From Tsukamurella pulmonis (GTDB lineage Bacteria; Actinomycetota; Actinomycetes; Mycobacteriales; Mycobacteriaceae), in contig NZ_FNLF01000002.1 of assembly GCF_900103175.1 (NCBI RefSeq), positions 1,364,001 through 1,428,000 on the forward strand: a stretch of 64,000 nt of DNA, written 5' to 3'. Each line of letters opens with the position of its first letter. Position 1 is the first letter of the stretch. The translations under genes and the position numbers were made by a program. The notes under the pieces are model-generated. The model did not search any database. It saw nothing but the letters and a program-made list of their open reading frames with translations, and had not been told where the DNA came from. Of the stretch, positions 42,876 through 45,988 are shown piece by piece.

Positions 42876-43979
42876 GTGCCACGCGTGCCCGTGGCGTCCG
42901 GCCTGCCGGACTTCCCGTGGGACACCCTCGCGGGAGCCAAGGCGAAGGCCGCCGCGCACGTCGGCGGCATCGTCGACCTCTCGGTCGGCACGCCCGTCGA
43001 TCCGGTGGCCGAGCCGATCCGCCGTGCCCTCTACGAGGGTTCGGCGTTCCCCGGCTACCCGGCGACGATCGGCACCGTCGCGCTGCGCGAGGCCGCGGCC
43101 GAGGCCCTGAGCCGGCGGTACGGCACCGTCGAACTGCCGGAGAACGCGATCCTGCCCGTGATCGGGACCAAGGAGGCGATCGCGCAGCTGCCGTCGACGC
43201 TGGGCCTCGGCGCGGGTGACGTGGTCGTGATCCCCGAGGTCGCGTATCCCACGTACGAGGTGGGCGCGCTGCTCGCCGGCGCGCGGCCGGTGCGGGCCGA
43301 CGGTACCGCCCAGCTCGGCCCGGAGCGGCCGGCGCTGGTCTTCATCAATTCGCCGTCGAACCCGACCGGCAAGGTGCTCGGCATCGACCACCTGCGCAAG
43401 GTGGTGCAGTGGGCGCGCGAGCGCGGCGCGATCGTGGCCTCCGACGAGTGCTACCTGGGCCTGGCCTGGGAGGCCGAGCCCGTGTCGGTGCTCGACCCGC
43501 GCGTCTGCGACGGCGACACCACCGGCCTGATCGCGATCCACTCGCTCTCGAAGACCTCCAACCTGGCGTCGTACCGCGCGGGCTTCCTCGCGGGCGACCC
43601 GGCGCTCATCGCCGAGCTGGCGGCGGTGCGCAAGCACGCCGGCGCGATCGTGCCGTTCCCGATCCAGGCGGCCATGAGCTACGCGCTGTCGGTCGACGAG
43701 CACGAGGCGGAGCAGCGCGCCCGGTACGCCGCGCGCCGCGCGGTGCTGCTGCAGGCCGTGCGCGGTGCGGGCTTCACCGTCGATCACTCCGAGGCGGGGC
43801 TGTACCTGTGGTCCACGCGCGGCGAGCCGTGTCGTGACACCGTCGACTGGCTCGCCGAGCGCGGCATCCTCGCCGCCCCGGGCGAGTTCTACGGCCCGCA
43901 GGGTGCGCAGCACGTGCGCATCGCGATGACCGCGACGGACGAGCGGATCGCCGCCGCCGCCCAGCGCCTGGCCCGATGA
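42876..43979 (+). CDS. dapC: N-succinyldiaminopimelate aminotransferase
   Basis: The 367-residue PLP aminotransferase acts in the succinylase branch of lysine/diaminopimelate synthesis; dapD and dapE are also in this window. The PLP lysine lies in SLSKTSNLASYRAGF near residue 228, with NSPSNPTG near 158 and SDECYLG near 190 as cofactor contacts. It starts one base after fdxA. Its stop overlaps the start of the DUF692/MNIO gene (ATGA), coupling the two. Confidence 0.93.
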   Translation: MPRVPVASGLPDFPWDTLAGAKAKAAAHVGGIVDLSVGTPVDPVAEPIRRALYEGSAFPGYPATIGTVALREAAAEALSRRYGTVELPENAILPVIGTKEAIAQLPSTLGLGAGDVVVIPEVAYPTYEVGALLAGARPVRADGTAQLGPERPALVFINSPSNPTGKVLGIDHLRKVVQWARERGAIVASDECYLGLAWEAEPVSVLDPRVCDGDTTGLIAIHSLSKTSNLASYRAGFLAGDPALIAELAAVRKHAGAIVPFPIQAAMSYALSVDEHEAEQRARYAARRAVLLQAVRGAGFTVDHSEAGLYLWSTRGEPCRDTVDWLAERGILAAPGEFYGPQGAQHVRIAMTATDERIAAAAQRLAR

Positions 43980-44863
43980 GCCTCACCGGCGTCTCGGCCG
44001 CGTGGCGGCCCGAGCTCGCCGGGATGCTGCTCGACGGCGCGCGGTCCGGTTCCGTCTCGTTCACGGAGGTGGTGGCGGAGAACGTCGACCCCGCCGACCC
44101 ACCTGCAGATCTGGTGGAACTGGTGCGCCTGGGCGTCACCGTCGTGCCGCACGGCGTGACGCTGGGCATCGCGGGTGCCGACCGCCCCGATTCGGGCCGG
44201 CTGCGGCGGCTCGCGGACCTGGCCCTCGCGTTCGACGCGCCGCTGGTCAGCGAGCACGTCGCCTTCGTCCGTGCCGGCGGCATCGGGCTCGACGGGGATG
44301 TGACGATCGGTCCGCACGACGACGTCCTCGAGGCCGGCCACCTGATGCCCGCCCCGCGCACCCCGGAGGCGCTCGACGTGCTGGTGGAGAACGTGCACTT
44401 CGCGCAGGCGGCGCTGCCCGTGCCGCTGGCGCTCGAGAACATCGCGGCCCTGTTCGCGTGGCCCGAGGACGACTACGACGAGCCGGCCTACCTGCGGGAA
44501 CTGGTCGAGCGGACCGGGGTGCGCCTGGTGCTCGACCTGGCGAACGTCTACGCCTCCTGCACCGCCCGCGGGGTGGACGCGGTCGCGGAACTGCGGCGGT
44601 ACCCGCTCGAGGCCGTCGCGTACGTTCACATCGCGGGCGGGCGCTTCGACGGCGACCTCTACCTCGATACCCATGCCGACCCGATATGTCCGGAAGTTCT
44701 TGATCTCCTTGCGGTCTGGCGGGATTCACAGGGTCCTCTTGGGGGCGTTCGTGCAGGTGAGAGCCTGTTGCCCGGAGTGTTGCTCGAACGTGACGAGTCC
44801 GTGATCGAATCCGCGGTCCGGCACGAGATGCTGTGCCTACGAGAGGTTCTCGGGATCGACTGA
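43976..44863 (+). CDS. DUF692/MNIO iron-dependent oxidase
   Basis: The 295-residue TIM-barrel protein belongs to the multinuclear non-haem iron oxidases (the MbnB/TglH group, formerly DUF692), which modify cysteines or other residues in ribosomal peptides. Metal-ligand motifs are in place: Glu31 (EVVAEN), His59 (VPHGVTLG), Glu93-His94 (SEH), Glu154-Asn155 (LEN), Asp187 and Asn190 (LDLAN), His218 (YVHIAGG), Asp231 and His233 (DTH) and Glu240. The ATG overlaps the dapC stop. The next two genes encode a Cys/Ser-rich peptide and a small protein that could be its precursor and partner. The substrate assignment is inference from context. Confidence 0.85.
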   Translation: MSLTGVSAAWRPELAGMLLDGARSGSVSFTEVVAENVDPADPPADLVELVRLGVTVVPHGVTLGIAGADRPDSGRLRRLADLALAFDAPLVSEHVAFVRAGGIGLDGDVTIGPHDDVLEAGHLMPAPRTPEALDVLVENVHFAQAALPVPLALENIAALFAWPEDDYDEPAYLRELVERTGVRLVLDLANVYASCTARGVDAVAELRRYPLEAVAYVHIAGGRFDGDLYLDTHADPICPEVLDLLAVWRDSQGPLGGVRAGESLLPGVLLERDESVIESAVRHEMLCLREVLGID

Positions 44864-44881
44864 ACGACCTGGAGGTGCGAG

Positions 44882-45163
44882 ATGGAATTCCTGGTGGTGT
44901 TCTTCGTGATCTTCGCAGTGATCGCCGCGTGCGTGTCCATCGCGGGCGGTCAGAACGGTGGGCGGCGCGGCGGGCGGTCCCGAGGGCGAGGCGGGTCGGC
45001 GGGCGACGGCGGCGGTTCGGCCTGGTTCTTCGGCGGCTCCGACGGCGGTTCGCACCACTCGGGCCACGATTCCGGTTCCAACTGCAGCGCGAGCAGCTGC
45101 GGGGGTTCGAGCAGTTGCGGGTCGAGCAGTTCGAGCAGTTCGAGCAGCTGTGGTTCCTCCTGA
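44882..45163 (+). CDS. Membrane-anchored Gly/Ser/Cys-rich peptide, candidate MNIO precursor
   Basis: This 93-residue protein has one hydrophobic segment at residues 3-21, an Arg/Gly stretch (RRGGRSRGR, 28-36), and a Gly/Ser tail with His58, His59 and His62 and cysteines at 68, 73, 79 and 90, three of them followed by Gly. By the positive-inside rule the tail should face the cytoplasm, where the oxidase could reach it. GGAGG lies seven bases before the ATG, so it is well translated. Its layout (anchor or leader, then a low-complexity Cys tail next to DUF692) is that of a modified-peptide precursor. No mature product is known. Confidence 0.7.
   Translation: MEFLVVFFVIFAVIAACVSIAGGQNGGRRGGRSRGRGGSAGDGGGSAWFFGGSDGGSHHSGHDSGSNCSASSCGGSSSCGSSSSSSSSSCGSS
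45122..45148 (+). repeat. Three tandem 9-bp units in the peptide tail
   Basis: TCGAGCAGT occurs twice and TCGAGCAGC once in direct tandem, encoding the Ser run before the last Cys. Such a repeat can gain or lose units by slippage without breaking the frame of the peptide, although the overlapping downstream gene would also be touched upstream of its start. Confidence 0.8.
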
Positions 45164-45551
45164 CGCGCGGGAGCGGTTGCGGCACCGGCAGGCCGAGGTC
45201 CTCGCGGATCTCCTGGCCTGCCGGGTGCCGCCCGGCTTCGATGCCGCCGGCGCCACGCTGACGGGCCGCGTCCTCGCGGTCAAGCGGGCGGGGGCCGCGG
45301 CCCGGGCCCTCCCGGCGCTGCGCACGTTGCCGGGCTGGCCGGGCGGCTTCGTCGACTACGCGGCATCGCATCCGAAAGCGGACTGCTCCGCCCACGACGC
45401 CCGCGACTACATCGCCTGGCTGCGCGCGCACGGCTCCGATGCCGAGCGCGCGTGGGTCGCGGTCGAGGCGGTCCGCAGCGGCGCGCGGCGCTGGGCCCTC
45501 GCGCACGGCCGGCCCGTGGTACGGGTGGGATCTCGGGTGTACGGCGGCTGA
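45150..45551 (+). CDS. Small putative partner protein of the MNIO cassette
   Basis: The 133-residue protein starts at the only in-frame GTG near the cassette, 14 bases before the end of the peptide gene, so translation is coupled. The N-terminal part (RLRHRQAEVLADLLACRVPP, then GFD, and later FVDYAASHPKAD and DYIAWLRAHG) resembles in pattern the N-terminus of HvfC/DUF2063-type partner proteins that present peptides to DUF692 enzymes. The C-terminal WALAHGRPVVRVGSRVYGG is unfamiliar. The likeness is by eye and weak. If right, it binds the precursor and the oxidase. Confidence 0.6.
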   Translation: MVPPDARERLRHRQAEVLADLLACRVPPGFDAAGATLTGRVLAVKRAGAAARALPALRTLPGWPGGFVDYAASHPKADCSAHDARDYIAWLRAHGSDAERAWVAVEAVRSGARRWALAHGRPVVRVGSRVYGG

Positions 45552-45689: not shown

Positions 45690-45727
45690 AAAGGTGATTG
45701 AGGTTCAGTTTCGATCGGGCGGTGAGG

Positions 45728-45988
45728 ATGAGATTCAACAAGGCGCGTGCGGCGCTGACGTCGGCATTGTGCGCGGCGGTGCTGGCGGGCGGTATCGGCC
45801 TGTGGACCGTGGAGTCCCGCCTGCTGGAGGGGCATCCGGAATGCTCGACCACGGGTGCCTCCCATGCCTCCATCGCCGCCATGACGGAGGCGGAAGTGGG
45901 CTCCGACGGGACGTCGACCTACGGCCGTGCGGTGGAGAAACTGCTCTCCAGGTTGGGGTGCAACGGGGCGCCCGTGTCCCGGAGTTGA
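45728..45988 (+). CDS. Hypothetical small exported protein
   Basis: The 86-residue protein has a basic N-terminus and a hydrophobic segment (about residues 6-24: ARAALTSALCAAVLAGGIGL) that reads as a signal peptide or anchor. The mature part carries two Cys (HPECSTTG and RLGCNGAP) that could form a disulfide. I do not recognise the family. The start is uncertain: ATG 45728 is chosen, but a GTG at 45722 and a TTG at 45698 are in frame. A large bidirectional terminator follows. Confidence 0.5.
   Translation: MRFNKARAALTSALCAAVLAGGIGLWTVESRLLEGHPECSTTGASHASIAAMTEAEVGSDGTSTYGRAVEKLLSRLGCNGAPVSRS

Follow-up and report, generated by a model that had tools for sequence, protein, structure and literature searches.

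A conserved MNIO cassette with a single-span, cysteine-tailed peptide in Tsukamurella: probably a minimal, tail-in variant of proposed membrane-anchored MNIO substrates

In a 64,000-nucleotide stretch of the Tsukamurella pulmonis genome (contig NZ_FNLF01000002.1, positions 1,364,001 to 1,428,000; hereafter the window), three genes on the + strand directly behind dapC form one coupled unit encoding an MNIO (DUF692) oxidase, a single-span peptide with a cysteine-containing Gly/Ser tail and a small partner protein. This cassette is a real, conserved trio and a minimal variant of the membrane-anchored MNIO substrates that have already been proposed, one in which the tail probably faces inward. With slightly better than even confidence, we read it as a system in which the oxidase and its partner act on a membrane-anchored substrate peptide, the tail cysteines are oxidized and the product is kept as a tethered buffer. 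The part of this reading that makes the peptide tail the substrate is the firmest, and we regard it as likely.

Results

An oxidase, a peptide and a partner form one unit behind dapC

The oxidase gene (43976..44863, +; ATG at 43976, stop ending at 44863; 295 residues) overlaps the stop of dapC by 4 bp (ATGA), and the upstream gene itself matches TIGR03539 at 579.5 bits (cut-off 355.65). The peptide gene (44882..45163, +; 93 residues) has a ribosome-binding site, GGAGG, six bases upstream of its ATG, and the partner gene (45150..45551, +; 133 residues) begins at a GTG that lies 14 bp inside the peptide gene. Open reading frames (ORFs), starts, stops and overlaps confirm the three-gene layout of the initial annotation, including the 14-base overlap of the 133-residue partner.

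Within the peptide, a predicted membrane helix (residues 3-21; 44888..44944, +; mean hydropathy 3.07) is followed by an Arg-rich juxtamembrane stretch with five Arg (residues 28-36; 44963..44989, +), by the aromatic-Gly motif SAWFFGG (residues 46-52; 45017..45037, +), which may serve as a recognition element, and by a Ser/Gly tail (45080..45160, +) that holds Cys68, Cys73, Cys79 and Cys90, the proposed modification sites. These four tail cysteines had been listed before; a further one, Cys17, lies within the helix. Of 501 stop-to-stop ORFs of at least 60 residues in the window, just this peptide passed a filter for a helix with a Cys-rich Gly/Ser tail, and its gene is under purifying selection (dN/dS 0.14-0.26 against five congeners). 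A brief tandem array of TCG AGC AGT codons spells out the Ser tail (window 45100-45160), yet congeners L004-L008 likewise have nine Ser in this run. The IAAC at Cys17 looks like a lipobox. A lipoprotein reading was nevertheless rejected: Val precedes the Cys17 equivalent in the close congeners L004-L008, L010 and L011 have no Cys at that position, and the basic n-region is absent.

The oxidase matches PF05114 at 191 bits (cut-off 25) and falls below the cut-offs of all five NCBIfam equivalogs that it matched, BufB (140.1 bits, cut-off 310) and HvfB (93.1, cut-off 360) among them. The profile match to five bufferin-type or DUF2063-linked MNIOs has a probability of 100 percent (E 9e-42). The PDB relatives of the window enzyme are TglH (8hci), the best by phmmer, and 3bww. 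Six of the nine iron ligands of TglH, as given in the available text of PMC10880893, align directly with the window enzyme; for the remaining three, equivalence to TglH ligands is inferred by way of 3bww, where H59 and H94 have His counterparts and E271 aligns to the ERD motif. All nine equivalents (H59, H94, E154, D187, N190, H218, D231, H233 and E271), together with R11 and D273, are invariant in 28/28 aligned enzymes, in agreement with the full set of metal ligands previously noted. D273, in the ERD motif, would stand at the place of Asp249, the proposed base of FonB, in a mapping made through the 3bww motif rather than the FonB sequence.

The cassette genes are present or missing together

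Lack of co-occurrence in other genomes had been named in advance by the initial annotation as one finding that would count against the trio. The genes do co-occur. In a genus set of 16 genomes, source genome included, dapC was found in 15 and the partner in 11. A close orthologue of the oxidase was present in 10 of the 15 genus genomes searched, with the partner in exactly those 10 and in none of the other five, and enzyme, peptide and partner were either present together (10) or missing together (5) in the 15 congeners examined. The eleventh partner-positive genome, G201, in which the peptide was also found, lies outside the MNIO search of 15. A phmmer search with the window peptide gave matches in 9/16 genomes; G125 (Tsukamurella sp. 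1534, whose enzyme is 80 percent identical to the window MNIO) and G168 were missed by it and carry diverged peptides at the expected place. Four genomes (G070, G137, G148 and G188) keep dapC and lack all three cassette genes, and three of the four retain just another MNIO, of the TIGR04222-associated type described below. In G148, all that is left of the MNIO gene is its 5' edge: similarity continues for 27 bases after the end of dapC and picks up again past the cassette. The cassette-less G198 is fragmentary, has no dapC match either and counts for little.

Pairing of oxidase and partner extends across the class. We searched 296 actinomycete genomes with an MNIO profile (E up to 1e-30) and a partner profile (E up to 0.001), built from hand-picked sets of 28 enzymes (A5) and 38 partners (A4). 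The MNIO profile was found in 63 genomes and the partner profile in 60, all within those 63 and none among the 233 others; these counts pool MNIOs of all substrate kinds, and the two lists were compared by eye. Because the partner profile was built from MNIO neighbors, its absence from the other genomes is the informative part. The three MNIO-bearing genomes without a partner (G642, G647 and G698) have remote MNIOs, and 61 of 62 partner places adjoin an MNIO (the exception is G612:C116). In two loci, moreover, oxidase and partner are a single reading frame: L048 (5403-6629, -), with the Pfam MNIO match at residues 4-269 and the match to the partner hidden Markov model (HMM) at 301-381, and L050 (1555-3105, -), with the two matches at 118-372 and 412-499. 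A single-span Cys-tailed peptide adjoins the fused gene in both. Together, the co-occurrence and the natural fusions show the pairing of oxidase and partner, and the fused proteins offer natural single-chain models of the enzyme complex.

The partner probably belongs to the PME-type 2 kind, whose description fits the position of its gene beside the MNIO gene. The window protein has no Pfam match at E up to 1, DUF2063 included. DUF2063 is the Pfam family matched by most relatives that have any match, yet just 3/38 partners match it (best E 0.0011), and a profile-profile comparison with hhalign gave a probability of 4.4 percent (E 0.009). Sequence searches of the PDB with the partner and with its profile found no relative. 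Across 246 genomes of the phylum, DUF2063 matched three times and once above cut-off (L156); that locus and seven plasmid loci make up our comparison profile A6. The HvfC-like character initially suggested for the partner therefore persists as a weak resemblance, carried by a few relatives and not by the window protein.

Single-span peptides beside other MNIOs share cysteine-rich tails and a charge pattern

A Gly/Ser/Cys-tailed single-span peptide lies beside the MNIO in 18/18 loci of one set (L004-L021) and in 13/15 of another (L053-L067), the two sets having five loci in common. Such peptides occur in Tsukamurella, Williamsia, Metallococcus, Nakamurella, Nocardioides, Mycobacteroides and Aeromicrobium, with two in tandem in Williamsia. 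The exceptions, L061 and L062, have a short peptide 3' of the partner (from ~4764) with a similar helix start and a tail that stops early with one Cys; their MNIO and partner frames are open despite the shortened tail.

We examined 24 of the small peptides in a hand-picked set (A2). All 24 have at least three tail cysteines; because the search filter demanded three tail Cys and a Gly/Ser-rich tail, the sample was in part bound to show this Cys count and composition, which is not true of adjacency and the charge pattern. Of 114 tail cysteines, 81 are followed by Gly, 31 by Ser and 2 by the C-terminus, such that Gly or Ser comes next in 112/112 non-terminal cases. A loose aromatic-Gly motif is present in 20/24 peptides and a His pair in 14/24. 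In the tandem duplicates of Williamsia and in those of L010 and L011, the tails differ and the Cys are kept.

These patterns bear on two explanations in which the tail is not a substrate. The peptide could be a membrane anchor or scaffold for oxidase and partner, the true substrate lying elsewhere, and many Streptomyces loci do have oxidase and partner with no recognizable tail protein nearby. The number of tail cysteines, the Gly or Ser that follows every non-terminal one and their retention in duplicates with otherwise varied tails all speak against a mere scaffold, which we consider improbable. Alternatively, the tail could be an unmodified, metallothionein-like metal-binding or redox peptide, the oxidase acting elsewhere, since Cys clusters with His pairs could bind soft metals unaided. 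This would leave the pairing with oxidase and partner unexplained, and we think it very improbable.

The charge pattern is uniform. No Lys or Arg precedes the helix in 24/24 small peptides and 2-9 occur in the 20 residues after it, where net charge runs from 0 to +8. By the positive-inside rule, all 24 are predicted to have the N-terminus out and the tail in the cytoplasm, in line with the cytoplasm-facing tail first proposed for the window peptide. The lack of a basic n-region in 24/24 also argues against a Sec signal peptide of the bufferin type.

A second, proposed substrate kind shares the enzyme and partner families

The source genome encodes a second MNIO (G000:C2:2430132-2430905; loci L001 and L033), which adjoins a 304-residue, Gly/Cys-tailed TIGR04222 protein (93.1 bits, cut-off 43) and is accompanied by a short partner match; both putative substrate kinds, single-span and TIGR04222, thus occur in one genome. 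In the available text of their survey of MNIO clusters, Antoine et al. 2025 (PMC12452194) propose subsets of TIGR04222 membrane proteins as substrates that go with PME-type 2 partners, and describe them as integral-membrane proteins with Ser/Gly/Cys tails predicted to be periplasmic; precursor candidates were drawn from genes preceding the MNIO. Our cassette resembles this system in its place in the Actinomycetota, its integral-membrane protein with a C-terminal Ser/Gly tail containing Cys, its related MNIO and a partner matched by the same HMM. Unlike the surveyed proteins, the window peptide is 93 residues long, has one helix, is predicted to be tail-in and is encoded 3' of its MNIO. TIGR04222 has no match in the window peptide nor, at E up to 1, in any of the 24 small ones; as a control, it matched 20/20 large tail proteins of a further hand-picked set (A3). 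By hydropathy, the window peptide has a single helix with the tail present, in place of the several-helix architecture of TIGR04222 proteins.

One rival to our reading is that the tail is modified yet lies outside, the small peptide being what is left of a TIGR04222 protein after loss of everything except the final helix and the tail. In its favor, MNIO and partner families are common to both kinds, TIGR04222 tails are predicted to be periplasmic in the survey as far as its text was available (PMC12452194), and the TIGR04222 tail of L047 has a stretch closely resembling the window tail (GGSDGGSHH, then SCGGG). The absence of Lys and Arg before the helix in every small peptide, their presence after it and the lack of any TIGR04222 match speak against this reading, and we judge it rather unlikely. 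The same charge test on the 20 TIGR04222 proteins gave a mixed result (the N-flank was more positive in 7, and the last helix was often missed) and is not used as support.

In a tree of 83 enzymes from a careful search, 27 of the 29 enzymes associated with single-span peptides fall into a single group, which also includes the two cut-tail loci (bootstrap 86, SH-aLRT 97, a moderate support); the tree excludes duplicates, L049 and roughly three in four of those L068-L132 loci that lack a Cys tail. The fusion pair L048/L050 stands apart near the base, and TIGR04222-associated enzymes lie in other groups. The label for substrate kind changes three times on the tree, against a mean of 24.3 for shuffled labels, and the starred branches force two of the changes. 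The clustering indicates that the single-span kind is old and not a local oddity.

Genomic context of the cassette

The site of the cassette is shared by Williamsia muralis (L040) and by G012 (L041), where it lies between the dapC cluster and the presumed dapD cluster; the name dapD for the genes on the far side is our assumption. In Aeromicrobium (L063), the cassette sits between isocitrate dehydrogenase and lactate/malate dehydrogenase genes. Neighboring genes are mostly housekeeping, differ between lineages and give no clue to function. A 96-residue ORF between the cassette and the dapD-like gene (45698-45985; ~45698-45988) was rejected as a fourth member: similarity of this region persists in the cassette-less G148 and G188. 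Its Pfam match to COX15-CtaA (E 0.071) is noise. One locus, L059 (NZ_JNYV01000004.1, titled Kitasatospora arboriphila), carries nearly the same cassette as G040, one that is also close to the Williamsia muralis cassette, and the assembly is probably mislabeled or contaminated. A genome search around G290 returned just the MNIO of the same locus.

Discussion

We propose that the peptide would insert through its N-terminal helix with the N-terminus out, leaving the Arg-rich linker and the tail in the cytoplasm, as the charge around the helix suggests. The partner would then bind the peptide, with the aromatic-Gly motif as a possible contact, and present the tail to the oxidase, which, with its iron cluster and oxygen, would oxidize tail cysteines that precede Gly or Ser. 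Judging from characterized relatives, the chemistry would most likely be a four-electron change such as 5-thiooxazole formation; by that analogy, we put a thiooxazole-type product at a little under an even chance. In FonB, the available text of Gadgil et al. (PMC12668002) describes a preference for a small residue after Cys and reports a Cys-Gly preference. Since the cassette holds no protease or exporter, the product may stay in the membrane, where, tethered on the cytoplasmic side, it might buffer soft metals (copper) or redox state. This last step is the least certain, and a metal-buffering role is offered tentatively. The most specific form of the proposal, in which the cassette resembles a ribosomally synthesized and post-translationally modified peptide system whose product is never released, the tail cysteines becoming thiooxazole-type heterocycles and forming a membrane-tethered, soft-metal-binding brush on the inner face, is less likely than not.

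A contrary fate for the product, namely that the modified tail is cleaved and released as a secreted bacteriocin- or metallophore-like peptide, finds some encouragement in a Pfam match to YxzE-like putative bacteriocins in 4/24 small peptides (best E 3.4e-6) and in two Nocardioides loci whose cassettes have an MMPL transporter gene nearby. The YxzE-like match is absent from the window peptide and from all seven members that were scanned again at E 0.01, so that it may reflect Gly/Ser/Cys composition; the literature on YxzE, as far as its text was available, held nothing bearing on the peptide. No protease was found among ten neighboring genes scanned in five loci. We rate release as the least probable of the explanations considered.

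Several observations weigh against a retained, tail-in substrate with a metal-related function. Metal-induced expression is not what a site behind dapC, as in Tsukamurella, would suggest. With TIGR04222 tails predicted to be periplasmic, kindred enzymes would have to serve tails on opposite sides of the membrane, and the L048 peptide has a net charge of 0 after the helix despite four Lys/Arg. The tails are of low complexity, so that similarity between tail profiles and the Gly or Ser beside Cys are partly a matter of composition. Kinship of the partner to DUF2063 is unproven by sequence comparison. In the Nocardioides loci L058 (5358-7811) and L066 (5136-7827), shared nitroreductase and MMPL transporter genes lie near the cassette (Pfam was run on L058), which suggests that further genes may belong to the system in some lineages. 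Not every related locus has a visible tail, either. Among 65 further loci (L068-L132, 63 of them labeled Streptomyces, some with flanks that stop at a contig end), a Cys-tailed TIGR04222-like protein is present in 16, and 13 more encode a TIGR04222 protein whose last 60 residues hold one Cys at most; in the other 36, the examined flank shows no tail protein and no TIGR04222 protein. Of these 36, 34 keep the partner (contig ends truncate L120 and L129), indicating that a visible tail need not accompany enzyme and partner. Likewise, L028-L030 show neither kind within 1.5 kb.

The cassette also has likenesses to other MNIO systems. As in the bufferins and captophorins (BufABC, HvfABC, FonABC), an MNIO is combined with Cys followed by a small residue and possibly with thiooxazole chemistry; unlike these, the window has no DUF2282 or DUF2063 match, and the peptide contains no Lys and hence no Lys-Cys or Cys-Lys motif. 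The DUF2282-MNIO-DUF2063-DoxX operon (for example, L160) differs from the window cassette, which stands behind dapC. TglHI (3-thiaglutamate) and MbnBC (methanobactin) likewise combine an MNIO with a partner, and differ in having soluble precursor peptides and other cluster genes.

The initial annotation assumed that MNIO precursors are secreted or soluble, and inferred a different system from the anchored peptide. As stated, that premise is unsupported: membrane-bound candidates are already in print. The available text of PMC12452194 lists, besides TIGR04222 proteins, Buf_EGKCG behind a predicted transmembrane helix, MerC-bufferin fusions and lipoprotein bufferins. Like the window peptide, the Buf_EGKCG/EF-hand type, the MerC fusions and the Buf2 lipoproteins are, in that account, putative membrane-anchored MNIO substrates, and in the first a single predicted helix precedes the Cys region; unlike it, they carry bufferin-type Cys domains instead of Gly/Ser/Cys tails, with MerC fusions predicted to be periplasmic and Buf2 anchored after export. 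The same text describes adjamnio-V, very small proteins encoded directly after the MNIO and without structural relatives, which by description resemble the window peptide and may or may not be the same peptide. A preprint (PMC12636315), in its available part, concerns a lipidated MNIO product. Within the open-access literature, as far as its text was available (subscription papers lay outside the scope), no paper dealt with a cytoplasm-facing or a Gly/Ser/Cys single-span MNIO substrate. The cassette is therefore better seen as a variant than as a wholly different system; what appears new relative to the published proposals is a single-span, predicted tail-in substrate kind that lacks TIGR04222.

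If this reading is correct, the window peptide would be the first tail-in anchored MNIO substrate known to us, outward-facing ones having been proposed already. Its cassette keeps the site behind dapC in Tsukamurella, in Williamsia muralis and in one more genus; other families have it at different chromosomal places. Assays of TIGR04222 proteins as MNIO substrates are difficult, and the proteins are large and diverse. With about 90 residues, one helix, four tail cysteines, one enzyme and one 133-residue partner, the cassette makes a simple test case for anchored Gly/Ser/Cys tails as MNIO substrates. It could show what product is formed and on which membrane side, and whether actinobacteria use MNIO chemistry to handle metals inside the cell in anchored form.

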